Shown here: piece by piece, positions 5,420 to 57,676 of the stretch | Layout of the letters: the number at the start of each line of letters is the position of its first letter | How positions within the stretch are numbered: the first letter of the stretch is position 1 | Assembly (NCBI RefSeq): GCF_024437735.1 | Contig: NZ_JANFQO010000016.1 | Coordinates: 1-64,000, forward strand | From: Tahibacter harae | GTDB taxonomy: Bacteria > Pseudomonadota > Gammaproteobacteria > Xanthomonadales > Rhodanobacteraceae | Direction: 5' to 3' | Length of the DNA: 64,000 nucleotides | Made by a program: the position numbers and the translations under genes | Notes under the pieces: generated by a model | Database searches by the model: none | Seen by the model: the letters and a program-made list of their open reading frames with translations, nothing else | Told to the model about the DNA's origin: nothing

Positions 5420-6190
5420 TCAGCGCACCAGCGAACGCTGGCTGCGGTCGATGAAATCCAGCATCAGCTTGACGTCGGGCGCCTCGGAGGAGGCTCGGGC
5501 CAGTTCCTCGCGCGCCTCGGCCAGGGGCAGGCCGGACTTGTACAGGGTCTTGTAGGCGCGGCGTATGGACAGGATGCGTTCGCTGTCGAAGCCGCGCCGC
5601 TTGAGGCCTTCGCTGTTGATGCCCTTGGGCTCGGCGAAGCTGCCGGCGACGGTGACGTAGGGCGGCACGTCGCGGTTGATGATGGAGCCCATCGAGGTGA
5701 AGGCGTGCGCGCCGACCTGGCAGAACTGGTGTACCAGGGTGAAGCCGCCGAGGATGACCCAGTCGTCCACCGTGACATGGCCGGCCAGCGAGGCGGCGTT
5801 GGCGAAGATGACGTTGTTGCCGACGATGCAGTCGTGGGCCAGGTGTACGTAGGCCATCAGCCAGTTGTCGTTGCCGATGCGGGTGACCCCGCCGCCGTCC
5901 TCGGTGCCGCGGTTGAAGGTGACGAATTCGCGGATGACGTTGCGGTCGCCGATTTCCAGGCGCGAGCTTTCGCCGTGGAATTTCTTGTCCTGCGGCGCGG
6001 CGCCGATGGAGGCGAACTGCCAGATCTTGTTCTCGCGGCCGATGCGGGTCGGCCCTTCGATGACGACGTGGGGGCCTATCCAGGTGTCGTCGCCGATCTC
6101 CACGTCGGCGCCGATCACCGAATAGGCGCCGACGCTGACGTTGTTCCCCAGGCGGGCCGCCGGGTCGATAACTGCGCTGGGGTGGATCAT
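5420..6190 (-). CDS. lpxA: UDP-N-acetylglucosamine O-acyltransferase
   Basis: The 256-residue product catalyses the first step of lipid A synthesis, moving a hydroxyacyl chain from ACP to UDP-GlcNAc. It opens MIHPSAVIDPAARLG and carries the hexapeptide repeats of a left-handed beta helix, then the C-terminal helical domain with NSEGLKRRGF. The HLAHDCIVGNN segment includes the catalytic histidine region. Its ATG shares one base with the fabZ stop, showing translational coupling. Confidence 0.96.
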   Translation of the reverse strand: MIHPSAVIDPAARLGNNVSVGAYSVIGADVEIGDDTWIGPHVVIEGPTRIGRENKIWQFASIGAAPQDKKFHGESSRLEIGDRNVIREFVTFNRGTEDGGGVTRIGNDNWLMAYVHLAHDCIVGNNVIFANAASLAGHVTVDDWVILGGFTLVHQFCQVGAHAFTSMGSIINRDVPPYVTVAGSFAEPKGINSEGLKRRGFDSERILSIRRAYKTLYKSGLPLAEAREELARASSEAPDVKLMLDFIDRSQRSLVR

Positions 6191-6657
6191 CAGTCGTTAC
6201 GCTCCGCGCACAACAGTTCGGCCTCGGCCACCACCTTGCCGGCCACCAGGGCCTGGCACCAGAACTGGCCCATGCGGCGGATCATGCGCTTCTGCTCCAC
6301 TTCCAGCACCAGCTGGTCGCCCGGGCCTACGATGCTGGAGAAGCGCGCCTTGTCCACCTTGACCAGGTAGAACAGCGAGCTGTGGCTGGGCGATTCGGCG
6401 TTGGTCAGCTGTACCAGCAGGCCCGAAGCCTGCGCCAGCGCCTCGATGATGAGCACGCCCGGCATCACCGGATGGCCCGGGAAATGGCCCTGGAAGAACG
6501 GCTCGTTGATGGTGACGTTCTTCAGCGCGGTCAGGCGCTTGCCGGCTTCGAACTGGGTGACGCGGTCCACCAGCAGGAACGGGTAGCGGTGGGGCAGCAG
6601 GTCGAAGATGCGACCGACGTCCAGCGGCAGGACAGTGCTGGCGTTTGAACCATTCAT
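6190..6657 (-). CDS. fabZ: 3-hydroxyacyl-ACP dehydratase FabZ
   Basis: The 155-residue hot-dog-fold dehydratase removes water from hydroxyacyl-ACP in fatty-acid elongation and competes with LpxA for the same pool. The LLPHRYPFLLVDRV and GHFPGHPVMPGVLIIEALAQ motifs contain the catalytic His and Glu. The ATG at 6657 was chosen over longer in-frame extensions because it overlaps the lpxD stop by four bases (ATGA) and gives the normal length. Confidence 0.96.
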   Translation of the reverse strand: MNGSNASTVLPLDVGRIFDLLPHRYPFLLVDRVTQFEAGKRLTALKNVTINEPFFQGHFPGHPVMPGVLIIEALAQASGLLVQLTNAESPSHSSLFYLVKVDKARFSSIVGPGDQLVLEVEQKRMIRRMGQFWCQALVAGKVVAEAELLCAERND

Positions 6658-7682
6658 ACAGCGGAATCCTTTTCTAGGGCACTCAGTCGACGCGCCAGTT
6701 CGTCCAGCTGGCGGAATCGCGCGGCGTTGCGGCGCCACTGGGCCTTGTCCAGGGCGGGCATGCCCGAGGAGTACTCGCCAGCGGCAGGGATGGAACTGGT
6801 GACCAGGCTCATCGCGGTCACGACGACCCGGTCGGCGATGGTCAAGTGGCCTAGGATACCGGCCGCGCCGCCAATCTGACAGTAGCGGCCGATGCGGGCG
6901 CTGCCGGCGACCGCGGAACAGCCGGCCATGGCGGTATGGGCGCCGATGTGGACGTTGTGGGCAATCTGGATCTGGTTGTCCAGGCGCACGTCCTCCTCCA
7001 GCACCGTGTCCTCCAGCGCGCCGCGGTCTATGGTGCAGTTGGCGCCGATCTCGCAGTCGTCGCCGATGCGCACACCGCCGAGCTGCGGCACCTTGATCCA
7101 GTGGTCGCGCTCGAAGGCCAGGCCGAAGCCGTCGGCGCCGATCACGGTGCCCGGATGCACCAGCACGCGCGCGCCCAGGCGCACCCGCGTCACCAGGGTG
7201 ACCCGGGCCACCAGGCGCGCCTGCGGGCCTACGCGGCAGTCCGGGCCGACCAAGCAGGCCGGGCCCAGCACGGCGCCGTCCTCGATCACCGCGCCGGCCT
7301 CGATCACGCAGTGCGGACCTATGCTGGCGCTGGCGGCGACCTGGGCCTGCGGATCCACGACGGCGCTGGGATGGATGCCCGACGGCGCGGCGGTGCTGCG
7401 CTCGAACAGGGCGGCGATATGGGCATAGGCGACGTAGGGATCGCGCGCGATCAGCGCCGTGCCCTGGCGCAATGGCGCGTCGTCGGCGCGCAGCACGACC
7501 ACGCCGGCGGCGCTGGCCTGCATCTGTGCGCGGTAGCGCGGGTTGGACAAAAAGCTGAGCTGGCCGGGGCCGGCCAGGGCCAGCGTGGCCACGCCTTCGA
7601 CCTGGGTTGCGGCGTCGCCGCGCAATTCCAGGCCGAAGCGCTCGGCCAGCGCGCCGGCGCGCCATGCGATGGCGGCGCTCAT
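6654..7682 (-). CDS. lpxD: UDP-3-O-(3-hydroxyacyl)glucosamine N-acyltransferase
   Basis: The 342-residue enzyme performs the third step of lipid A synthesis. An N-terminal uridine-binding domain is followed by hexapeptide repeats from about residue 100. The motifs GADGFGLAF and NQIQIAHNVHIG are characteristic, and the latter carries the active-site histidine. Its start overlaps the skp stop by four bases and its stop overlaps the fabZ start by four, so the run skp-lpxD-fabZ-lpxA is tightly coupled. Confidence 0.96.
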   Translation of the reverse strand: MSAAIAWRAGALAERFGLELRGDAATQVEGVATLALAGPGQLSFLSNPRYRAQMQASAAGVVVLRADDAPLRQGTALIARDPYVAYAHIAALFERSTAAPSGIHPSAVVDPQAQVAASASIGPHCVIEAGAVIEDGAVLGPACLVGPDCRVGPQARLVARVTLVTRVRLGARVLVHPGTVIGADGFGLAFERDHWIKVPQLGGVRIGDDCEIGANCTIDRGALEDTVLEEDVRLDNQIQIAHNVHIGAHTAMAGCSAVAGSARIGRYCQIGGAAGILGHLTIADRVVVTAMSLVTSSIPAAGEYSSGMPALDKAQWRRNAARFRQLDELARRLSALEKDSAV

Positions 7683-8209
7683 GGCGTGGCCTGGCGTTTC
7701 TGGAATTCGCGGCGCAGGCGTTCCAGCACCCGGTCGGTGATGTCGATGCGCGGATCGGCGTAGACCACCGGACTGGGCACCACCAGGTCCAGCCCCTGTT
7801 CGCGTGCGTAGTCGACCACGGTGTTGTTGATCTCCTGCCAGCTCTTGTCGAGTTCCTGGTCGCTGCGGCTCTTGAGTTCGGCGCGCAGTTCTTCGCGGGT
7901 GCGCTTGACGTTGCGCTCCAGCGCGTCGATTTCGCGCTTGCGCGTGTCGGCAGTGGGCTTGTCCAGCTGGGCGCCCTCGCTGTCGAAGCTGCGCCGCAGT
8001 TCGGCCAGGCGGGCTTCGTCCTGCTTGAGGCTGGTGTCGCGGGCGGCGAATTCGCGCTGCAGGCGCTCGCGCCCGGCCTGGACCTGGGGCGCGTTGTCCA
8101 GCAGCCGCTTCATGTCCACGTAGCCCAGTTTGGACTGGGCCAGCGCGGTCAGCGGCAGCAGCACCAGCGCCGCCGCGAATGTCCATGTTGCGAATGCGTG
8201 CTGGCCCAC
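7679..8209 (-). CDS. skp: Periplasmic outer-membrane-protein chaperone Skp (OmpH)
   Basis: The 176-residue product has a signal peptide ending near ALAQ (about residue 25), followed by SKLGYVDMKRLLDNAPQ and a long charged coiled-coil segment, typical of the trimeric Skp chaperone that holds unfolded outer-membrane proteins for BamA. The start codon is GTG at 8209, preceded by an AGGAG about six bases away. It sits between bamA and lpxD as in most gammaproteobacteria. Confidence 0.92.
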   Translation of the reverse strand: MGQHAFATWTFAAALVLLPLTALAQSKLGYVDMKRLLDNAPQVQAGRERLQREFAARDTSLKQDEARLAELRRSFDSEGAQLDKPTADTRKREIDALERNVKRTREELRAELKSRSDQELDKSWQEINNTVVDYAREQGLDLVVPSPVVYADPRIDITDRVLERLRREFQKRQATP

Positions 8210-8287
8210 GCCTTTCTCCTGGTCAGGTCGGCGGGACGGACGCGCAGGCCGCGTCCGTCGTCGCCCCCGTGATGATGCCAGTTTCGA

Positions 8288-10636
8288 TCAGAACTGGGTG
8301 CCGAAGGAGAACTGGATGGATTCGGTCTTGTCGCCGTCCTTCTTGCGGATGGGACGGGCCAGGTTGATGGTGATGGGGCCCACCGGCGCCTGCCACTGCA
8401 GGGCCAGGCCGGTGGACGCGCGCAGCTCGCCGGCGTCGAAGTCGCCGAAGCTCTTGTACACGTTGCCCACGTCGAGGAAGGCGGAGATGCGCACCGAATC
8501 GCTGTCCTTGGCGAACGGCGTGGGCAGGATCAGCTCGGCCGAGCCCAGCACCTTGAACGCGCCGCCCAGCGGCTGGCAGTAGTCGCTGAAGACGCTGACC
8601 TTCTCGCACGGGCCCAGGGTGTTGTCCTCGAAGCCGCGCACGTCGCGCACGCCGCCGGCGTAGAAGTTCTCGAAGAAGGGCAGGCCGCCGATGCGCATGC
8701 GCACCTTCTCCGGACTGTTCGGATGGTAGCGGCCGATCGCGTCCTTGTAGCTGTCGCCGTAGCCGAGGTTGCCCGAGACCAGGAAGGTGAACTTGTCGCT
8801 GAGCGGGAAGTAATGCGCGCCCTGGTAGTAGAGCTTGTAGTACTCCAGCGTGGAGCCGGGCAGGGCGATCTCGGCCGAGATCGACTGCAGGCCGCCGCGG
8901 GTCGGGGTGAAGTACTTGTTGCGCGTGTCGTGCGACCAGGACGCCGTCAGGTTCCAGGTGTTGATGGTGCGGCGGTCGAGGTTGGTGATGTAGTCGATGA
9001 TGCTCGGCGGGGTATAGCCGTCGAACACGTTGATCTGGGTGCGGTTGACGCCGAGCTGGAACTGCACGCCGTCGGTCTCGCCGATGGGCACGCCCACGAA
9101 GGTGGAGAACGCGGCCGTGTCGGTCGAGTAATTGGCGATGTTGGCCTCGCTCTGGTCGAGGTTGCGCACGCTGGCGTTGTAGCCGACGCTGATGCCGGTG
9201 TCGTTGAGATACGGCTGGGCGTAGCTCAGGTCGTAGCGCTTGAGGTAGGAACTCTTCTGCACCGTCATGGCGACGCGGTCGCCGGTGCCGAGGAAGTTGT
9301 TCTGCGACACCGACACCGAGGCGATCAGCTTCTGCACCTGCGAATAGCCCAGGCCGAACAGCAGGCTGCCGGAGGGCTGTTCCTCCACCGTCACCAGCAT
9401 GTCGACCTGGTCTTCGCTGCCGGCGACCTTGGGCGTCTGTATGTCGACGGTCTTGAAATAGCCCAGGCGCTGCAGGCGCACCTTGGAGCGGTCGATCGCG
9501 GCCTGGGAATACCAGGACCCTTCCAGCTGGCGCAGCTCGCGGCGCAGCACCTCGTCCTCGGTGCGCACATTGCCCTTGAAGGTGATGCGGTTGACGTAGA
9601 CGCGCTTGCCCGGCTCGATGAAGAAGGTCACCTCGACGGTGCGGTTGTCCTTGTCGGTCTTGGGCACCGGGGTCACTTCGGCGAAGGCGTAGCCGATGTT
9701 GGACAGCACCGAACTCATGGCCTTGGCCGACTGCTCCAGCTTGCGCCGGGAGAACTGCTCGCCAGGCTTGGTCTTGAGCAGGGCGCGCAGGCTTTCCTCG
9801 GGCAGCACCAGGTCGCCGAGCAGCTTGATGTCCTTGATGGTGTACAAGTCACCTTCGTGCACATTGGCGCTGACGTAGATGTTGCGCTTGTCCGGGCTGA
9901 TGGAGACTTCGGTCGATTCGATGTCGAAGTCGGCGTAGCCGCGGTCGAGGTAGTAGGAGGCCAGCTTCTCCAGGTCGCCGGAGAGCTTCTCGCGCGAGTA
10001 CTGGTCGTTCTTGGAATACCAGGACGTCCAGTTGGTGGTGTGCGACTCGAACTCGTCGCGGATCTCCTTGTCGCTGAAGACCGTGTTGCCGACGACGTTG
10101 ATGTGCTTGATCTTGGACGCCTTGCCCTCGGCGATGTTGATGTTGATGTCGACGCGGTTGCGGTCCAGCGGCGTCACCTTGGGCGTGATCGTGACGTTGT
10201 ACTTGCCGCGGTTGTGGTACTGGCGCACCAGTTCCTGCTGCACCCGGTCCAGCTGCAGGCGGTCGAAGGTCTCGCCTTCTTCCAGGCCTATGCCCTTGAG
10301 GCCCTTGCGCAGCTCCTCTTCCTTGAGTTCCTTGTTGCCCTTGAGGGTGATCTTGGAGATGGCCGGGCGTTCCTGCACCGTGACGACGAGGATGTCGCCC
10401 TGGCGCGAGAGCTGCACGTCGTTGAAGAAGCCGGTCTTGAACAGGGCGCGGATGGCTTTTTCCGCCGCGTCGGCGGTCATGCGGTCGCCTTTTTCCACCG
10501 GCAGGTAGGTGAACACCGTGCCGGGCGCGATGCGCTGCAGGCCATCGATGCGGATTTCCGAGACGACGAAGGACTCGAACGCGTGGGCCTCGGCGGCGAG
10601 GCAGGCAAGCAGGAGCAGGGCGGCGATACGCTTCAT
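8288..10636 (-). CDS. bamA: Outer membrane protein assembly factor BamA
   Basis: The 782-residue Omp85 protein has a signal peptide ending AEAHA, five POTRA domains over roughly residues 22-345, and a C-terminal 16-strand barrel ending in Phe. The GGVRDVRGF segment carries the conserved VRGF motif of lid loop 6. It inserts beta-barrel proteins into the outer membrane. An in-frame TTG lies two codons upstream; the ATG at 10636 is preferred because it begins a clean signal peptide (MKRIAALLLLACLA). Confidence 0.96.
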   Translation of the reverse strand: MKRIAALLLLACLAAEAHAFESFVVSEIRIDGLQRIAPGTVFTYLPVEKGDRMTADAAEKAIRALFKTGFFNDVQLSRQGDILVVTVQERPAISKITLKGNKELKEEELRKGLKGIGLEEGETFDRLQLDRVQQELVRQYHNRGKYNVTITPKVTPLDRNRVDININIAEGKASKIKHINVVGNTVFSDKEIRDEFESHTTNWTSWYSKNDQYSREKLSGDLEKLASYYLDRGYADFDIESTEVSISPDKRNIYVSANVHEGDLYTIKDIKLLGDLVLPEESLRALLKTKPGEQFSRRKLEQSAKAMSSVLSNIGYAFAEVTPVPKTDKDNRTVEVTFFIEPGKRVYVNRITFKGNVRTEDEVLRRELRQLEGSWYSQAAIDRSKVRLQRLGYFKTVDIQTPKVAGSEDQVDMLVTVEEQPSGSLLFGLGYSQVQKLIASVSVSQNNFLGTGDRVAMTVQKSSYLKRYDLSYAQPYLNDTGISVGYNASVRNLDQSEANIANYSTDTAAFSTFVGVPIGETDGVQFQLGVNRTQINVFDGYTPPSIIDYITNLDRRTINTWNLTASWSHDTRNKYFTPTRGGLQSISAEIALPGSTLEYYKLYYQGAHYFPLSDKFTFLVSGNLGYGDSYKDAIGRYHPNSPEKVRMRIGGLPFFENFYAGGVRDVRGFEDNTLGPCEKVSVFSDYCQPLGGAFKVLGSAELILPTPFAKDSDSVRISAFLDVGNVYKSFGDFDAGELRASTGLALQWQAPVGPITINLARPIRKKDGDKTESIQFSFGTQF

Positions 10637-50392: not shown

Positions 50393-51523
50393 ATGGACCA
50401 TATCCGACCCATACTCATTCTTTCGGAGCAGCTGGACTACCACGGTGTTGCGGTGCGCTGGGCCCTGCGCCAGCAGGGCATCCCGCTGGAGTGGTGGGAC
50501 CGCACCGAATTTCCCCGCGACCAGCAGATTGCCGCCTGGGTTTCCAACGAGCGTGTCCGCCTGCAGGTGTCCTCCGCATCGGTCAGCGCCTCGCCCGGCC
50601 GCTATCGCACGATCTGGAACCGGCGCGGCCAGGTACCGCAAGTGAGCGCCGCGCTGGAAAGGACCGACCGCGTGGTCGCGCGCAACGAATCGACGTATTG
50701 CCTGGCGGGACTGGCCAGCGTGCTCGCCGACGCCAATCCGCACGCGCTGATCGTCAATGCCTTCGACGCCGCCAAGGCTGCCAATACCAAGCTGCACCAG
50801 CTGAACGTCGCGCGCGCCGCGGGATTCAGGGTTCCCGACACCTTGCTGTCCAACGATCCCCAGGCCATACGCCAGTTCTTCGCGCAGCGCGGCGGGCGCG
50901 TGGTCGCCAAGCACCACATACCCTTCGCCTGGCGTACCCAGGCGGGCAAGCTGCTGGTCACGGGCACGTCGGCGCTGGCCGAGGAACATCTTTCCAGCGA
51001 TGAGGCGCTGAGCGCCTGCCCCATGCTGTACCAGGAAATGCTTGACGTAGAAAGCGAGCTGCGCGTCATCGCCTTCGGCCATAGCGATTTCGCGCTGGAG
51101 CAGATTCGTACCGCAGCGCCGGCCGCCAGCGGCTTTGTCGATATCCGCTACGAACCGGCGCGCAAGCAGGCCGCCGTACTGGAGGCTCCGGTCCGGGCGC
51201 TGTGCCGCGAATACATGGCCCGCATGCGACTGAGCTATGCGGCTTTCGATATCGTCAAGACCGTCCAGGGCGATTACGTATTCCTCGAAGCCAATGAGGC
51301 CGGCCAGTTCCTCTTCCTGGAAAACGAGGCGCCGGAGCTGCCGATGCTCGATGCCTTCTGCCAGTTCCTCTCCAGCGGCGATGCCGCCTTCCGCTACGAA
51401 TTCCCGACCGGCCTGAAGCTGGCGGATTTCGAGAACTCCGCCGACGCAGCCGATTTCCACCGGCGCTACGACGCGCATATGGCCGGCGCCGACCTGACAA
51501 GTCCCTTCGAACTCACCGAATGA
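50393..51523 (+). CDS. MvdD-like ATP-grasp peptide ligase (RiPP maturase)
   Basis: The 376-residue enzyme resembles the ATP-grasp ligases that form omega-ester or amide links in microviridin-like graspetides. An N-terminal preATP-grasp region with TIWNRRGQVPQ (73-83; MvdD has RRP) is followed by KLHQLNVARAAGFRVPDTLLSNDP (133-156) and the nucleotide site FLEANEAGQFLFLENE (297-312) with Glu299 and Asn301 as magnesium ligands and Asp285 nearby. The active site is complete. It is the first gene of the cluster, 79 bases before the precursor. The ATG lacks a clear ribosome site. Confidence 0.85.
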   Translation: MDHIRPILILSEQLDYHGVAVRWALRQQGIPLEWWDRTEFPRDQQIAAWVSNERVRLQVSSASVSASPGRYRTIWNRRGQVPQVSAALERTDRVVARNESTYCLAGLASVLADANPHALIVNAFDAAKAANTKLHQLNVARAAGFRVPDTLLSNDPQAIRQFFAQRGGRVVAKHHIPFAWRTQAGKLLVTGTSALAEEHLSSDEALSACPMLYQEMLDVESELRVIAFGHSDFALEQIRTAAPAASGFVDIRYEPARKQAAVLEAPVRALCREYMARMRLSYAAFDIVKTVQGDYVFLEANEAGQFLFLENEAPELPMLDAFCQFLSSGDAAFRYEFPTGLKLADFENSADAADFHRRYDAHMAGADLTSPFELTE

Positions 51524-51533
51524 AATTGTGAAT

Positions 51534-51555
51534 TGCCGGCCCCGCAGGGCCGGCA
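51534..51555 (+). promoter_or_regulatory. Hairpin between ligase and precursor genes
   Basis: TGCCGGCCC and GGGCCGGCA pair perfectly with a CGCA loop, 10 bases after the ligase stop. A second small stem GGAGGC/GCCTCC follows (51564-51582). These may be processing or stability elements that let the precursor mRNA outlast the ligase mRNA. Confidence 0.45.
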
Positions 51556-51602
51556 TCGGGGAAGGAGGCACCTCACGCCTCCATTACGCAAAGGAGAGTT
51601 TC

Positions 51603-51794
51603 ATGGAAACGAACAACGGCAACACCCGCATCCTCGCCCGCTCGCTGGCGCGCGAACTCACCGCCGATGAACTCGCGCTGGTTTCGGGCGGCGGATCCTG
51701 CACCAAGTCGACCTGCTCGGCGTCGGACAACAGCTCCTGCGACCTCGATCAGTGCGGCGACTATCAGGACTCCACGGGTCCTTCCGCGCCCTGA
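51603..51794 (+). CDS. RiPP precursor peptide with double-glycine leader
   Basis: The 63-residue peptide has a leader ending ELTADELALVSGG (residues 18-30), the usual recognition and cut site of C39 peptidases, then a core of about 33 residues with four Cys (33, 38, 46, 51), eight Ser, three Thr, one Lys and five Asp (42, 47, 49, 53, 56). The core has two 13-residue units, 32-44 and 45-57, both of form SC-x4-C-x5-S. The first is rich in Ser/Thr/Lys, the second in Asp. AAGGAG six bases before the ATG is a near-ideal ribosome site. It is a likely substrate for the ATP-grasp ligase; the links themselves are unknown. Confidence 0.85.
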   Translation: METNNGNTRILARSLARELTADELALVSGGGSCTKSTCSASDNSSCDLDQCGDYQDSTGPSAP

Positions 51795-51807
51795 TGCGTT
51801 CCGCTGC

Positions 51808-51848
51808 AGCTGCCCGGTCAATACCGGGCAGCTGTCTTGTTCTGTTTC
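51808..51848 (+). terminator. Terminator or attenuator after the precursor gene
   Basis: CAGCTGCCCGGT and ACCGGGCAGCTG (51808-51835) make a perfect 12-bp stem with a CAAT loop, followed by the T-rich TCTTGTTCTGTTT. It starts 13 bases after the precursor stop and sits before the rest of the operon, so partial read-through could keep the precursor more abundant than the enzymes. Confidence 0.7.
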
Positions 51849-51866
51849 GCCCGGGCGGGAAATCCC

Positions 51867-52127
51867 ATGCGTCTCGAAAAGCACGAATTGCTGGACCGGC
51901 TGGAGGCGCTTGGCGCACGGCTGGACTGTCCCTGCTGCGGCACCACCTCCTGGAACCTGTTCATCGAGGAACCCGAAAACCTCGAAAACCAGCGCGTCAT
52001 GGAGTTTGCGCTGCGGCGTCTCGCGGGCGGAATCTCGGTGGCGCTGGCGGCCCTGGTGTGCGGCCGCTGCGGCTTCGTACGGCTGCACAGTGTCGACCAC
52101 CTGATCGGCGTCGGCCGTTCCGCATGA
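51867..52127 (+). CDS. Small zinc-ribbon protein
   Basis: The 86-residue protein has two Cys pairs, CPCC (Cys21 and Cys24) and CGRC (Cys65 and Cys68), placed to form one zinc ribbon, with a helical insert between. It has no signal peptide. Its role in the cluster is unknown; it might help leader recognition or bind the ligase. The stop overlaps the next start by four bases (ATGA). Confidence 0.75.
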   Translation: MRLEKHELLDRLEALGARLDCPCCGTTSWNLFIEEPENLENQRVMEFALRRLAGGISVALAALVCGRCGFVRLHSVDHLIGVGRSA

Positions 52128-53008
52128 GCGTGCGTGCGCGGACGCGCCCGGCCGCGGCTGTGCGCCTGCGCGCGCGGGTTCGCGGCATTTCCGCAGCGCT
52201 GTTCGCCGCTGTGCTGGCCGCCTGTGCGCACGGCGCGCCGCGGCCGGCACACGCCGCCTGCGGGCAGGTGCTGTTCGCCGGCAACAGCGTGATCTATACC
52301 AACAACCTTCCCGCGATCTTCGTGGAACTCGCCGCAGCGCAGGATGGCGGCGGCGCCTGCCGGGCCGACCTGATTGCGCGCGGCGGCGCGACCTTGTCCG
52401 AACTCGAAGAAGACATTGCGCGACAGCTGGCAAGCGGCACCTATTCCGCGCTGGTTCTCCAGGAGAAAGGCGGCAGCGACCTGTGCGTGCTGGATACGCA
52501 GGAGCGCGCGTCCGCGGCCTGCCAGCGGCTGATCGCAAGTCATGTCCGTCTGGCCGAGGCAGCGCGCGCGCACAATGTCCGTGTGCTGTATCTGGGCACC
52601 TATCAGTTCGTGCCGGAAGCGTCGCAGGCGCTGGTGAATGCCGAGCGTGAGCTGGCGTACCGCATGGGCGCGCGCCACATCCCGCTCAGCGAGCGCCTGC
52701 GCGCGGCGCGCGGACAGCAGCCCGCATTGCCCTGGCTGCACGCCGATGGCAGCCATCCCGGCCTTGCGGCCAGCGTGCTGATGGCCGCGCTCGTCCACAA
52801 GGAACTGGCCGGAAGCCTGCCGCCCAGCGCAGCCCTGTGCTCGCGCATTGCGCTGTATGCACCGGAATGGACGCCGTTCCCTGTGACGCCTCATCAGGTA
52901 CTGACCGCACCGGCCGCCGGCCGCCGCTGCCTGCTGTCGGACGAGCAGATGCGGGCGGTCTTCGACGCCGCCGCAACCGCAGGGACAGCACCGGAGCCGC
53001 TGCAATGA
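52124..53008 (+). CDS. SGNH-type hydrolase, probable lipoprotein
   Basis: The 294-residue protein has a basic N-terminus, a hydrophobic stretch with a lipobox-like VLAAC (Cys34), then an SGNH fold: FAGNS (Ser55), a Gly block (ARGGATL) and WLHADGSHPG (Asp208, His211). Only the block I variant GNS differs from the classic GDS. It is likely an esterase or acyl hydrolase outside the inner membrane. Stop and start overlap with both neighbours by four bases, so it is a true part of the operon. It could edit, free or detoxify an ester-linked peptide; this is inference. Confidence 0.78.
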   Translation: MSVRARTRPAAAVRLRARVRGISAALFAAVLAACAHGAPRPAHAACGQVLFAGNSVIYTNNLPAIFVELAAAQDGGGACRADLIARGGATLSELEEDIARQLASGTYSALVLQEKGGSDLCVLDTQERASAACQRLIASHVRLAEAARAHNVRVLYLGTYQFVPEASQALVNAERELAYRMGARHIPLSERLRAARGQQPALPWLHADGSHPGLAASVLMAALVHKELAGSLPPSAALCSRIALYAPEWTPFPVTPHQVLTAPAAGRRCLLSDEQMRAVFDAAATAGTAPEPLQ

Positions 53009-55095
53009 GCCGCATCCAGGCGGAAGCCGCCGAGTGCGGGCTGGCCTGCATCGCCATCGTGGCGGCGGCGCACGGCCAGCATATCGGCCTTGCCGAGCTG
53101 CGCCAGCGTTTCCCGCTTTCGCTGCGCGGCGCGCGCCTGAACCAGGTCATCCATATCGCCCACCAGATCGGCCTGGAATCGCGTCCGGTCCGCGTGGAGC
53201 TGGATGGCCTGCGCCAGCTGCGGCTGCCCTGCATCCTGCATTGGGACCTGAATCACTTCGTGGTGCTGGAGCGCGCCGGTGCGAAGTGCTGCGTGATCCA
53301 GGATCCGGCCGTGGGCGAGCGCAGGCTGGGCTGGAGCGAGCTGTCGCGCCATTTCACCGGCATCGCCGTGGAATTGTCGCCCGGCGCGGAATTCGCGCCG
53401 CGCCGCGCTGCGCCGGGCATCAGCCTGCGGCAGTTGATCGGGCCGGTGCGGCGCTGGGGGCAGGCTGTCGCGCAGATCCTGCTCGCCTCGCTCGCCCTGC
53501 AGTGTTTCGTCACGCTGGCGCCGTTCTACCTGCAACTGGTGGTCGACCAGGTGCTGGTATCGGCCGAGCGGGATCTGCTCGTCGTACTGGGCATGGGCTT
53601 CGGCCTGCTGCTGCTGCTCCAGACCGGCGTGTCCGTGCTGCGTGGATGGTCGGTGATCCATCTGTCCGCCCAGCTTGGCGTGCAATGGATCTCGAACGTG
53701 TTTGCCCATTTGCTGCGCCTGCCGCTGGATTTCTTCGAGAAGCGGCACCTGGGCGATATCAATTCCCGCCTCGGTTCGGTGCAGGTCATACAGAAGACGC
53801 TGACGACCAGCTTTGTCGAGGCAGTCATCGATGGGTTGATGGCGCTGCTGACCCTGGCGCTGATGCTGGTCTACAGCCGGACGCTGGCGCTGGTCACCAT
53901 CATTGCCGCGGCCTGCTATCTGGCGATACGCCTGGTGGGCTCGCAGCAAATGCGGCAGCGGGTCGAACGCCAGCTCGCGGCGGGCGCCCGGCAGCAGACG
54001 CATCTGCTGGAATCGCTGCGCGGCGTGCAGAGCCTCAAGATCGCGGGACTGGAGCCGCTGCGCGCTGCGGCATTCCGCAATCTCAGCGTCGAAGTGGCCA
54101 ACCAGGATGCGCGCCTGGCCAGGCTGTCCCTGCTGTTCGGCAATGCGGGCCAGCTCGTGTTCGGCGCCGAGCGCATCGCCGTCATCTGGCTCGGCGCGGC
54201 GCTCGCGCTCGACAACGTCTTTTCCGTGGGAATGCTGATTGCGTACCTGTCGTACAAGGAGCAGTTCACCGCACGGGTCGGTTCGCTGATCGACAAGGCG
54301 GTGGAGTTCCGCATGCTGCGCGTACATGCGGAACGCCTGGCAGACATCGTCCTGGCCGAACCCGAACACACCGGGGCCGCCGCCGATGTCGGGCCGGGAG
54401 ACACGCGCATCGTGCTGAACAATGTCTCGTTCCGCTACTCCGATGGCGAGCCGTGGATACTGCGCCACTGCAATCTGGTGATCGAGCCCGGCGAGTCGGT
54501 CGCGCTCACCGGCGCATCCGGCTGCGGCAAGACCACGCTGGTCAAGCTCATGCTGGGCCTGCTGCGCCCCCAGGAAGGTTCGATAACCCTGGGCGGACTG
54601 GATGTGCATGGCCCCGCTGCGCGCAGCGTGAGAACGCGGATCGGTGCCGTGATGCAGGAGGATCAGCTGTTCGCGGGCAATATCGCCGACAACATCAGCC
54701 TGTTCGATCCCGACGTGGACATGGCCCGGGTCGAGGCCGCCGCTCGCAAGGCGGCCATTCACGCGGAGATCGCCGCGATGCCCATGAGCTACCAGAGCCT
54801 CATCGGCGACATGGGCAGCGCGCTCTCGGGCGGGCAGAAGCAGCGCGTCATCCTGGCCCGGGCGCTGTATCGCGAACCTTCGCTGCTGTTCCTCGACGAG
54901 GCTACCAGCCATCTCGATCTCGCCGGCGAACGCTGCGTCAACGAGGCGGTGCGCGGCCTCAGCCTGACCAAGGTCATCGTCGCCCATCGCCCGGAAACCA
55001 TTGCGAGCGCCGGGCGGGTCGTCGTGCTGGAACAGGGTTCCATCGTGCCGGAAAAGCCGGCCGCCGCACGTCTGGCTGCCGGGCGCGGCGCCTGA
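53005..55095 (+). CDS. C39-peptidase ABC exporter (PCAT)
   Basis: The 696-residue protein joins a C39 leader peptidase (1-130; QAEAAECGLAC with Cys11, His84 in DLNHF, Asp100 in IQDP, triad complete), six membrane helices (about 150-430) and an ABC domain (from about 465; GASGCGKTT 503-511, LSGGQKQR 607-614, LLFLDEATSHLD 627-638). It should cut the precursor after Gly-Gly and export the core in one step. The start overlaps the upstream stop (ATGA). Confidence 0.93.
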   Translation: MSRIQAEAAECGLACIAIVAAAHGQHIGLAELRQRFPLSLRGARLNQVIHIAHQIGLESRPVRVELDGLRQLRLPCILHWDLNHFVVLERAGAKCCVIQDPAVGERRLGWSELSRHFTGIAVELSPGAEFAPRRAAPGISLRQLIGPVRRWGQAVAQILLASLALQCFVTLAPFYLQLVVDQVLVSAERDLLVVLGMGFGLLLLLQTGVSVLRGWSVIHLSAQLGVQWISNVFAHLLRLPLDFFEKRHLGDINSRLGSVQVIQKTLTTSFVEAVIDGLMALLTLALMLVYSRTLALVTIIAAACYLAIRLVGSQQMRQRVERQLAAGARQQTHLLESLRGVQSLKIAGLEPLRAAAFRNLSVEVANQDARLARLSLLFGNAGQLVFGAERIAVIWLGAALALDNVFSVGMLIAYLSYKEQFTARVGSLIDKAVEFRMLRVHAERLADIVLAEPEHTGAAADVGPGDTRIVLNNVSFRYSDGEPWILRHCNLVIEPGESVALTGASGCGKTTLVKLMLGLLRPQEGSITLGGLDVHGPAARSVRTRIGAVMQEDQLFAGNIADNISLFDPDVDMARVEAAARKAAIHAEIAAMPMSYQSLIGDMGSALSGGQKQRVILARALYREPSLLFLDEATSHLDLAGERCVNEAVRGLSLTKVIVAHRPETIASAGRVVVLEQGSIVPEKPAAARLAAGRGA

Positions 55096-55140
55096 ACCGT
55101 CAGGACGCAGTAGACACAGGACAACGGCAGGAGCGCGACG

Positions 55141-55902
55141 GTGCACATACTGAAAGACTTCGTTCCGCCGGCAACGATGCGATCGCTCATCGCCGATGTC
55201 CTGGCCGCCTACGATCCGCCGCGCAACGCGCTCGACCTGGGGCAGAGTCCCGTCGTGGCGCAACTCGGCGCACAGCTGGAAACGATCGTCGGCCGGCCGC
55301 TGGGCTTCTTCGCGGCGTTCCTGTTCCTGGTGGCGGACACCACGCTGGAGACGGTCAGCAGCAATCCGGGCCGGGGCTGGCATGTGGACAGCGCCTGCAG
55401 CCAGGTCGACGGTGACTGCTACAACCTGTGGCTGCCCTTGTACAGCAGCGCGGCCGGGACCGGCGTGGAAGTCGTGGCTGCAGCGGACAATGCCGAGCTG
55501 TACCAGTGCCTGGGCGATCCGCGGCTGCCGCTGGATATCCTTGTGCGTGCCGGCGCGCCGGATCTTTTCGCCCAACTCGGCGCGGACGCCCGGACCGATC
55601 TGATCCTGATTCGCCGCGGCTCGCCGCAGGCGCTGTTCCTGTCCTGGGACGACCTGGTGCTGCGGCGCATGGAAAACCCGACGGTCGGCGACGCGGCGGT
55701 GTTCAGGCAGGCGGATATCCACCGCGGTTTTCACGATGCCGGCATCCGCATCCAGCTCAGCCTGAAGTACGTCGACCGCGCGGCCCGGCAGCTAGAACCC
55801 GGCGTGCCCACTGCGGCGGCGCGCGGATTGAGCAAGCACGGGCGCCTGGAAGCGCAGCTTGTGCGCGAACTGTTGGGCGTGCAGGCAGCGCGGCTGATCT
55901 AG
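55141..55902 (+). CDS. Putative Fe(II)/2-oxoglutarate-type oxygenase
   Basis: The 253-residue soluble protein has WHVDS (His81, Asp83) and, 110 residues later, IHRGFHDAGIRIQLSLKYV (His194 or His198, Arg203). HxD...H...R is the metal and 2-oxoglutarate site of the double-stranded beta-helix oxygenases, close in style to phytanoyl-CoA dioxygenases. A role as tailoring enzyme, such as hydroxylating a residue of the peptide, is inferred. The start is GTG with AGGAG about six bases before. It lies 45 bases after the exporter gene. Confidence 0.7.
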   Translation: MHILKDFVPPATMRSLIADVLAAYDPPRNALDLGQSPVVAQLGAQLETIVGRPLGFFAAFLFLVADTTLETVSSNPGRGWHVDSACSQVDGDCYNLWLPLYSSAAGTGVEVVAAADNAELYQCLGDPRLPLDILVRAGAPDLFAQLGADARTDLILIRRGSPQALFLSWDDLVLRRMENPTVGDAAVFRQADIHRGFHDAGIRIQLSLKYVDRAARQLEPGVPTAAARGLSKHGRLEAQLVRELLGVQAARLI

Positions 55903-55991
55903 CGCGGCTGTCGCGGGATGCGGGGCAGGCGGGACGCCGCAGGCATCGCATGCCGGCGCGGCCAAGGTGTCGGACGAGGGGAGGACAGACA

Positions 55992-57272
55992 GTGTCAGAC
56001 AGGACGACGGCGCAGGAATTGTTCCGCAGGGAAGCGCTGGATGCGCAGCGTGGGAGCAGTCTCGGCGAAATTGCGCTCACCCAGCCGCTGCGGCCGGCGC
56101 TGCTGTCCATCGCAGCCATCCTGGCCGCGGCGGCGATCGTGCTGCTGCTGGTCTTCGGTACGTACACGCGGCGCTGGCGCGTGGAAGGACAACTGGTGCC
56201 GGTGAACGGACTGGTCGCGGTGTCCGCGCCCATCGCGGGCGTGCTGACCCGCGTCGATGTGCAGGAAGGCGCCGGCGTAGGCTCGGGCACGGTGCTGGCT
56301 GTCGTCGCCGCTCCGGGCGCGACGCTGCTGAGCGAGGACACCGGCAGCGCACTGGAAGGCCGGCTCGCCGAGCGCGCGGCCGGGCTGCGTTCCGCGCGGC
56401 AGGCGGAGCGCGCAACGCTGCAGGCCAAGGCCGAGGGGACGGCGCGGCAGCTGGCGATTGCGAAGAAAGAGCTGTCGGAAATCGAGCGCTTGAGCGCGAC
56501 CCGCGCCGAACAGGTGCGACTGGCGCGTGAAACGCTGGCGCGCTGGCGCCAGCTCCAGCGCGAGAAGCACGTCAGCGATCTGCAGGTCAGGCAGCAGGAG
56601 GACCTTGCCCTGGAGAAAGTGGCCGAAGTACAGGTGCTGGAGCGGGATGCGACGGCGACGCGCCGCACGATCGCGCAGCTGGAGCAATCCCTGGAAGAGG
56701 CGCGCGGGCAGGGCCTGATGGCCGACGCGACGCTGGAGGGCAATCTCGCGGCACTGGAACAGGAACGCCTGCAGGCCCGGATTCAGCGCGAGCTGGTCAT
56801 CACCACGCCGGTCGCCGGCGTTGTCGCCACGCAACTGGCCAAGCTGGGCCAGGCGGTCCAGCCTGGGCAGGTGCTGTTTACCGTCGTGCCGGGCGATGGC
56901 GCGCTGGAAGCGCAGCTGCTGGTTCCCAGCCGCGCAATCGGACCGATCAAGCCCGGAGCGGAGGTGCTGCTGCGCTACGACGCATATCCGTACCAGCAAT
57001 TCGGTTATGCAACGGGCAAGGTCCGTGCGGTGAGCCGCAGTGCCCTGGGCGCGAACGAGCAGGCGGCGCTGAGCGGAATCCCGGCAGCGGGAGAGCAGCG
57101 CTACCGCGTCAGCGTGGCGCTGGCGCGGCAATCCATCGACGTGCACGGCCAGGCGGAGCCGCTCACGCCGGGAATGCTGCTGCAGGCCGATATCATCGGC
57201 GAGCGCCGGCGGCTTATCAGCTGGCTCGCCGATCCGCTGGCATCGCTGCGCGCGAAAGTCGGCCCTGAATAG
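55992..57272 (+). CDS. HlyD-family periplasmic adaptor (CvaA-like)
   Basis: The 426-residue membrane fusion protein opens LFRREALDAQRGSSLGEIALTQPLRP, similar to CvaA, which carries colicin V with CvaB. One membrane helix (about 37-57), a lipoyl-like domain split around residue 95 and 270, a long coiled coil (about 115-255) and a C-terminal beta barrel follow. It would bridge the C39 exporter and an outer-membrane channel such as TolC. The GTG start at 55992 follows a GAGGGGAGGA ribosome site. Confidence 0.9.
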   Translation: MSDRTTAQELFRREALDAQRGSSLGEIALTQPLRPALLSIAAILAAAAIVLLLVFGTYTRRWRVEGQLVPVNGLVAVSAPIAGVLTRVDVQEGAGVGSGTVLAVVAAPGATLLSEDTGSALEGRLAERAAGLRSARQAERATLQAKAEGTARQLAIAKKELSEIERLSATRAEQVRLARETLARWRQLQREKHVSDLQVRQQEDLALEKVAEVQVLERDATATRRTIAQLEQSLEEARGQGLMADATLEGNLAALEQERLQARIQRELVITTPVAGVVATQLAKLGQAVQPGQVLFTVVPGDGALEAQLLVPSRAIGPIKPGAEVLLRYDAYPYQQFGYATGKVRAVSRSALGANEQAALSGIPAAGEQRYRVSVALARQSIDVHGQAEPLTPGMLLQADIIGERRRLISWLADPLASLRAKVGPE

Positions 57273-57454: not shown

Positions 57455-57676
57455 ATGGTCCGTGATCCGGATGTTGCCAGCAGGCTCAGCAGCGTAGCCC
57501 TTGCCGCGGGCAAGGAGCTGGACGAAGTTCTGATGTTTTCTGCCGAACGAGTCAGCCCGGAAGAATTCCAGCAGCTGCGCCATGCCGTGGGAAATGTTCT
57601 CGGCGAGTTGCTTTTGTCCATACTCAATCCGCTCTATCGGCAGCATCCGGAATTGAAGCCGGCCGAATTGAACTGA
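57455..57676 (+). CDS. Small helical hypothetical protein
   Basis: The 73-residue protein is predicted mainly helical (DVASRLSSVALAAGKELDEVLMFSAERVSPEEFQQLRHAVG and following), soluble and acidic. GGAG lies 10 bases before the ATG. It is 182 bases after the HlyD gene in the same direction, so it may belong to the cluster, perhaps as an immunity or regulatory protein, or be unrelated. No family recognised. Confidence 0.6.
   Translation: MVRDPDVASRLSSVALAAGKELDEVLMFSAERVSPEEFQQLRHAVGNVLGELLLSILNPLYRQHPELKPAELN

Follow-up and report, generated by a model that had tools for sequence, protein, structure and literature searches.

The window analysed here, a stretch of 64,000 nucleotides from Tahibacter harae (contig C8 of our set, in a 5.99-Mb genome), carries a compact cluster of seven genes at 50393-57272, all on the + strand. 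They encode an ATP-grasp ligase, a small precursor peptide, a zinc-ribbon protein, an SGNH-type hydrolase, a C39 peptidase-containing ABC exporter, a putative 2-oxoglutarate (2OG)/Fe(II) oxygenase and an HlyD-type adaptor (Table 1). As judged from the sequence, this cluster probably makes a short graspetide-type peptide with four cysteines, which would be cross-linked, oxidised and exported. An initial annotation, made from the sequence of the window, had placed the seven genes here on one strand and had read them as a pathway for a ribosomally synthesized and post-translationally modified peptide (RiPP) of graspetide type, with Gly-Gly cleavage and export; our results support that reading in outline. 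It had also mentioned several ATGA overlaps. These occur at two of the six junctions (zinc ribbon/SGNH and SGNH/C39) and the other four are gaps, the distances in gene order being 79, 72, -4, -4, 45 and 89 bp. A 73-residue open reading frame (ORF) 3′ of the operon (57455-57676, +) was set aside: it matched no family and had no homologue among the 20 clusters compared.

Table 1. Features of the proposed graspetide cluster (positions in the window; aa, amino acids).
Feature	Position	Strand	Length	Evidence
ATP-grasp ligase, MvdC/MvdD/SAV_5884-like, proposed graspetide synthetase	50393..51523	+	376 aa	TIGR04187, TIGR04185, PDB matches
Precursor peptide	51603..51794	+	63 aa	alignment of five precursors; AAGGAG upstream
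Hairpin, candidate partial terminator	51806..51835	+		13 pairs, T-rich tail
Zinc-ribbon protein, CPxC...CxxC	51867..52127	+	86 aa	Cys conservation, three rows
SGNH-type hydrolase, lipobox-like signal	52124..53008	+		GNS block and D-x-x-H-P-G block
C39 peptidase-containing ABC exporter	53005..55095	+	696 aa	PF03412, PF00664, PF00005
Putative 2OG/Fe(II) oxygenase, PhyH-like, GTG start	55141..55902	+	253 aa	HxD...H...R motif
HlyD-type periplasmic adaptor of exporter, GTG start	55992..57272	+		PF13437, TIGR01843

The ligase matched NCBIfam TIGR04187 with an E-value of 1.7e-48 and 165 bits (cut-off 350), TIGR04185 with 162 bits (cut-off 425) and TIGR04184 with 128 bits (cut-off 475). Its closest solved chain was PDB 5ig8 (E 2.3e-32), and 7m4s matched at E 1.5e-28. 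Six of the seven matching chains are ATP-grasp ligases of the MvdC/D type (5ig8, 7m4s, 5ig9, 7mgv, 9bou and 7drm), which we take to be graspetide enzymes. Residues K133, K173, R224, D286, E299 and N301, presumably the ATP- and metal-binding and active-site residues, are the same in every one of the 29 ligases aligned, as expected for a graspetide synthetase of this type. The exporter matched PF03412 with an E-value of 2.4e-30, the only such match in the window's genome at E<=0.001, and the HlyD protein matched PF13437 (E 3.7e-18) and TIGR01843 (E 2.1e-36). The exporter carries C39 and ABC motifs.

The same peptide family was found in three other genomes, one of them from another family of the order, giving five precursors in total. 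L032, from a Rhodanobacteraceae metagenome-assembled genome placed in the window's genus (G231; the locus matches the opposite strand of contig C38), has the order HlyD, ligase, precursor, zinc ribbon, C39-ABC exporter, oxygenase. L034, from a different genus (G111), has the order C39-ABC exporter, ligase, precursor 1, zinc ribbon, HlyC-type acyltransferase, 675-residue MchC/SelO-like protein, precursor 2, with a second, weak zinc-ribbon match and an oxygenase gene on the opposite strand, 2.3 kb from the exporter gene. L137, on a 7.5-kb contig of the more distant genome (G300), has the order ligase, precursor, SGNH lipoprotein, HlyD, C39-ABC exporter. Ligase, precursor and C39 exporter are thus common to all four clusters, and HlyD to three; in L034 no HlyD was recognized, the 187-residue ORF upstream of the exporter matching no HlyD model. 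The initial annotation had made its reading depend on a neighbourhood conserved in relatives, and the relatives do keep the arrangement. They do not keep it as a single fixed seven-gene set: the SGNH gene is missing from L032 and L034, the zinc ribbon and oxygenase from L137, and HlyD is moved or unrecognized. Because the arrangement recurs in other genomes, and because the core is under purifying selection (see below), we regard it as beyond chance.

Ligase matches are fairly widespread, being found in 43 of 233 genomes of the taxonomic family (the window's own included), but the identity exceeds 40% in only two others, G231 (58%) and G111 (46%). We built ligase trees from 29 and then 30 rows, comprising the ligases of the window, L032, L034 and later L137 plus 26 of the 27 other family ligase loci (L015, a near copy of L014, was omitted). 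The four ligases that accompany this peptide family form one clade with support 100/100, which implies that ligase and core type travel together. None of the four reaches an NCBIfam graspetide cut-off; this counts against our reading and leads us to regard the window-type ligases as a divergent branch.

The precursor itself, for which no family scored over its cut-off, consists of a leader (METNNGNTRILARSLARELTADELALVSGG) and a 33-residue core (GSCTKSTCSASDNSSCDLDQCGDYQDSTGPSAP), with the predicted cut after G30 or G31. Unmodified and reduced, the core has a calculated mass of 3286.23 Da, or of 3229.21 Da for a cut one Gly further on. A GG (or GA) leader is thus accompanied by a C39-ABC exporter with catalytic motifs. 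The initial annotation described a ligase directly beside a precursor rich in Ser/Thr/Lys and Asp. The adjacency is seen in all four clusters and the composition agrees for Ser (8), Thr (3) and Asp (5), whereas there is a single Lys, which is not conserved. The main feature of the precursor, which that annotation did not mention, is its four-Cys core, C-x(2,5)-S-x-C-x2-S-D-x3-C-D-L-D. Nine positions are invariant in the five aligned precursors (C33, S36, C38, S41, D42, C46, D47, L48 and D49), and each of the five has four Cys, the last being displaced by several residues in G300. The leaders share the consensus R-[IV]-L-[AS]-R-x-L-A-R-x-L. Between the window and L032, 18 core codons (STCSASDNSSCDLDQCGD) differ by 10 silent and no replacing changes, and 22 leader codons by 9 silent and 3 replacing changes; the former count implies strong purifying selection on the core.

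As expected for a graspetide precursor, this ligase-adjacent peptide has potential donors and acceptors, S36, S41, D42, D47 and D49, that are conserved in all five sequences. Two properties of the core fit less well: there are only two invariant Ser as opposed to three Asp, so that donors and acceptors are unbalanced when counted on conserved residues alone, and an ester or amide linkage leaves the strong Cys conservation unexplained.

At E<=0.01, a profile of four precursors matched 12 of the 233 family genomes, the score passing 100 bits only in the window's genome, G231 and G111. Four of the nine weak matches are 95-1129 bp away from a ligase match. When 250 genomes of the order were searched with this profile, it gave four matches at E<=0.001: the window's, that in G300 (58 bits) and two weak ones. 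All three new matches, including the weak two, adjoin a ligase. These weak matches suggest that the leader similarity extends to other ligase-linked precursors. At 18 other ligase loci, a regular-expression search for the GG motif gave no convincing precursor. Six of these loci, all with C39-linked ligases, nevertheless contain short ORFs that are likely precursors with quite different cores: four end in YD-x-EW (L037:8360-8569, L038:9570-9767, L039:8836-8997 and L040:9914-10123), one has D-C-x-x-D-D-C (L035:9561-9710), and the sixth is at L036:7681-7863. Core diversity thus appears to be high among the C39-linked ligases of this family.

In the zinc ribbon, C21, C24, C65 and C68 are invariant in three rows, and an AlphaFold model from two rows (predicted local distance difference test (pLDDT) score 65), with helices and three strands, is consistent with a ribbon but says no more than that. 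Nine of the 233 family genomes have ribbon matches at E<=0.01, and the three that exceed 100 bits are exactly those with the precursor. The oxygenase matched two of 398 genomes of the order (the window's and G111) and, among 369 genomes of the class, gave a convincing match only in the window's; two short class-wide matches, one in another genome (E 0.0075) and one at a second place in the window's genome (E 0.0082), were dropped, and a search of plasmids gave no match. All three known oxygenase copies sit in this type of cluster. Ribbon and oxygenase occur together in three of the four clusters (window, L032 and L034), and a search of the G300 genome for both found neither. Since no cluster has one of them and lacks the other, we propose that the ribbon is a partner of the oxygenase; the ligase is the other candidate partner. 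A caveat to this pairing is that the ribbon's absence is drawn from one genome, in which the contig ends 330 bp past the ligase.

The window oxygenase had no Pfam match at E<=10, and the best Pfam matches of its homologues (E 0.028 and 0.16) were chance matches to unrelated families. H81-x-D83, H194 and R203 are invariant in all three rows and provide the HxD...H triad and 2OG-binding Arg of this enzyme class. When a profile of the three rows was compared with a set of PhyH proteins taken from related genomes (19 of 20 loci), the score was 27.7, with the HxD and the GD...F...H block in register, as opposed to 13.7 for the reversed alignment and 18.6 for the best of 100 column shuffles. Several controls argue in the other direction. 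The single window sequence scored 17.3 against PhyH, no better than the shuffles, and the unrelated 73-residue ORF scored 18.4; the HHalign probability was only 15%; and no similarity was seen to PF13640, the family of CorC. The last comparison is a weak one, as the positive control also failed: the PhyH and PF13640 sets missed each other as well. An AlphaFold model from the window and L032 rows (pLDDT 47) was not used, and Foldseek returned no match at E<=0.001, a further point on the negative side. On balance we consider a PhyH-like 2OG oxygenase likely from these alignments, a confidence that we lowered slightly because the single-sequence control did no better than shuffles.

Two of the genes flanking the oxygenase in G111 are worth recording: a 588-residue protein with what we read as glycosyltransferase-like motifs and no family match (L034:12955-14721, -) and a TylF-type methyltransferase (L034:15535-16209, -; E 2.2e-13).

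A hairpin follows the precursor gene. In the window its predicted stability is -34.4 kcal/mol, a value equalled by none of 200 mononucleotide shuffles and, on repeat, by one of 200. Strong hairpins lie 3′ of all five precursors: in four cases none of 200 shuffles was as stable (in one of these, 1 of 200 on repeat), and in the fifth 3 of 200 were. It is possible that the hairpin acts as a partial terminator that favours the precursor over the downstream genes. Three observations speak against giving this much weight: the spacer between ligase and precursor in the window contains an equally strong hairpin (1 of 200 shuffles), the region has 5 terminator-like sites where 6.2 are expected, and in L032 the T-rich tail is missing from the hairpin. 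We therefore treat the hairpin as weak support.

The SGNH protein had no Pfam match above cut-off, but it has the block I Ser and the block V D-x-x-H: S55 and H211 are identical in all eight aligned rows, the window's included, and the block V Asp is absent from one row, which is not the window's. (The alignment used eight of 12 loci, the other four being omitted for internal stop codons.) We propose that it is a periplasmic esterase with a role in self-protection. That this lipoprotein is a chance neighbour in the operon seems to us somewhat unlikely, although several counts favour it: homologues are common (39 of the 233 family genomes); in the seven other genomes with both SGNH and ligase matches, the listed pairs are separated by about 20 kb or more or are on different contigs; and, besides the absence from L032 and L034, only L137 among 24 other fetched ligase neighbourhoods has a homologue. 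On the other hand, ATGA overlaps flank the gene on both sides, and in the G300 cluster, from another family, a homologue directly follows the precursor, so that the SGNH gene occupies the same position in two of the four clusters. This shared position weakens the hitchhiker reading, which we keep as a rival. A role in maturation, with the modified peptide as substrate of a peptidase or esterase activity, has a precedent in CgnD, an SGNH/GDSL hydrolase that removes the crocagin leader (PMC10885120, available text). We consider it unlikely here: all four clusters have a C39 exporter available for leader removal, and given its lipoprotein-like signal the SGNH protein would meet the peptide only after export.

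Taken together, these features suggest the following pathway. By way of the hairpin that follows its gene, the precursor would be produced at a higher level than the downstream proteins. The ligase would read the leader (RILARSLARELT) and join Ser hydroxyls (S36, S41 and perhaps T37 or S39) to the carboxylates of D42, D47 and D49, with a loss of 18 Da per link. Before or after cross-linking, the PhyH-like oxygenase with its zinc-ribbon partner may add oxygen (16 Da) at one residue. The C39 domain would then cleave after Gly-Gly and the peptide would leave via the ABC transporter and HlyD, after which the four Cys could form two disulfides outside the cytoplasm. Where present, the SGNH lipoprotein would have the ester-linked product as its periplasmic substrate, most likely for self-protection. 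Homology supports ligation and cleavage/export; which residues are donors and acceptors, where oxygen is added, the role of the partner, the disulfides and self-protection are inferred. An antibacterial peptide or a protease inhibitor is the most likely product.

Other chemistries would be compatible with parts of this evidence. The Cys might be donors rather than disulfide partners, the ligase using their thiols to make Cys-to-Asp thioesters or later rearranged links: their conservation ranks with the highest in the core, C46 adjoins D47, and some graspetide synthetases can form non-native thioester links (PMC13097080). The available text of the same paper names no native thioester graspetide, and in G300 the position of the fourth Cys differs by several residues while the count remains four, which fits disulfide pairing better than a fixed donor site; we regard thioester links as improbable. 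A metal-binding product, either a RiPP metallophore or a metal-dependent microcin with Cys and hydroxylated Asp as ligands, would make sense of the stretch of the window precursor from residue 33 to 51, which holds four Cys and three conserved Asp. The hydroxylation of Asp by oxygenases of a group 18 graspetide cluster (PMC13097080) and the HlyC/MchC-like pair of L034, as in siderophore-microcin clusters, point the same way. It is nonetheless decidedly unlikely, as the seven operon genes include no receptor, regulator or uptake gene and tblastn gave no counterpart of the HlyC/MchC-like pair in the window, L032 or L137. Finally, the ligase may not be a macrocyclase at all. RimK-type and PEARL-type enzymes add amino acids or another group, and a ligase that did so to the precursor would leave a linear disulfide peptide as product; in favour are the graspetide cut-offs that it does not reach and a weak similarity to RimK-type ligases (22.6 bits). 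Against this, TIGR04185 and TIGR04187 exceed rimK by about 140 bits, the matched solved chains are nearly all of the MvdC/D type and the core conserves both Ser and Asp, making such an activity very improbable. A cross-linked peptide with disulfides thus remains our preferred reading.

Much of this gene set has company in the literature. In the survey of Makarova et al. 2022 (PMC8939145), of which we draw on the available text, the C39-ABC transporter ranks first by weighted frequency among graspetide neighbours and HlyD fourth, and many graspetide precursors have conserved Cys. The Xanthomonas and Lysobacter clusters in branch 3 of that survey share with ours the ATP-grasp ligase, Gly-Gly leader, C39-ABC exporter and HlyD; that text does not describe the C..S.C..SD...CDLD four-Cys core, the zinc ribbon, the PhyH-like oxygenase or the SGNH lipoprotein. 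Carter et al. 2026 (PMC13097080, likewise in its available text) add 19 new graspetide groups to 24 earlier ones, with oxygenases in group 18 and a 2OG cluster in group 15; eight groups have NHLM-type exporters. The group 15 peptide, corallotide, is the closest in layout, with a TIGR04187-type ligase, a precursor, a divergent 2OG/Fe(II) oxygenase and a further partner protein; its 2OG enzyme, with that partner, activates the ligase and hydroxylates a cross-linked residue. However, corallotide clusters have a large precursor with KxxxD repeats, a PF13640 oxygenase and a predicted beta-lactamase partner and are restricted to Corallococcus, whereas the window has a small Cys4 core with no conserved Lys and an oxygenase without a PF13640 match, and thus neither the repeats nor the oxygenase that mark group 15. 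The group 18 oxygenases SmaO/SmaX (Kim et al. 2025, via PMC13097080), which we liken by description only, act on Asp of a graspetide precursor in a group where NHLM-type transporters are frequent.

Outside the graspetides, the crocagin cluster also includes an SGNH-type hydrolase, again likened by description, but CgnD acts inside the cell (PMC10885120, available text), unlike the lipoprotein-like protein of the window beside its C39 exporter. The siderophore microcins H47 and E492 are exported peptides whose clusters share HlyC-type (MchD/MceI) and MchC/SelO-like (MchC/MceJ) genes with L034. MchC is tied to HlyC-type partners in microcin maturation and has been reported in Xanthomonas, and the available text of that paper does not mention an ATP-grasp ligase (PMC3281104). 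The window lacks the HlyC/MchC pair; in L034 it lies between the two CDLD precursors (5852-8345, -; PF02794, E 4.6e-25 for the acyltransferase). A plasmid of Photobacterium damselae carries an annotated row of genes (L133:5397-12813: HlyC-like, SelO-like, glycosyltransferase, hypothetical, radical SAM, HlyD and C39-type ABC) that resembles a microcin-type cluster, so far uncharacterised, equipped with a radical SAM enzyme.

The initial annotation had called the gene set unknown from published clusters, which is half right. An ATP-grasp ligase with C39 exporter and HlyD is common, and a graspetide cluster with a 2OG oxygenase has been published (PMC8939145, PMC13097080); by contrast, our search of open-licence papers, survey supplementary lists excluded, turned up neither a zinc ribbon nor an SGNH protein in such clusters, nor any graspetide ligase accompanied by MchC. 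The Cys4/CDLD core and the ribbon/oxygenase pair were likewise not met in that literature, although they may already stand in the surveys' supplementary lists. We conclude that the cluster is real, conserved and rare and, as the core sequence occurs in only a few relatives, that it is a credible new branch of the known graspetide class rather than a new class. The fullest version of this proposal seems doubtful to us as a whole: a branch with lactone/lactam links plus two disulfides in a core of about 30 residues, an undescribed lineage-restricted 2OG oxygenase with a zinc ribbon, a lactone-opening periplasmic SGNH guard and, in one relative, a graspetide-microcin hybrid.

A link between a graspetide ligase and the microcin HlyC/MchC pair would join two kinds of peptide maturation not met together in the literature searched. 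The tailoring enzymes of graspetides have been described as understudied (PMC13097080), and this family offers a compact set for their study: the small core is conserved, the oxygenase belongs to no known family and a zinc ribbon occurs with it. Because the G300 genome yielded neither oxygenase nor ribbon, the oxygenase step is testable by comparison within the family.

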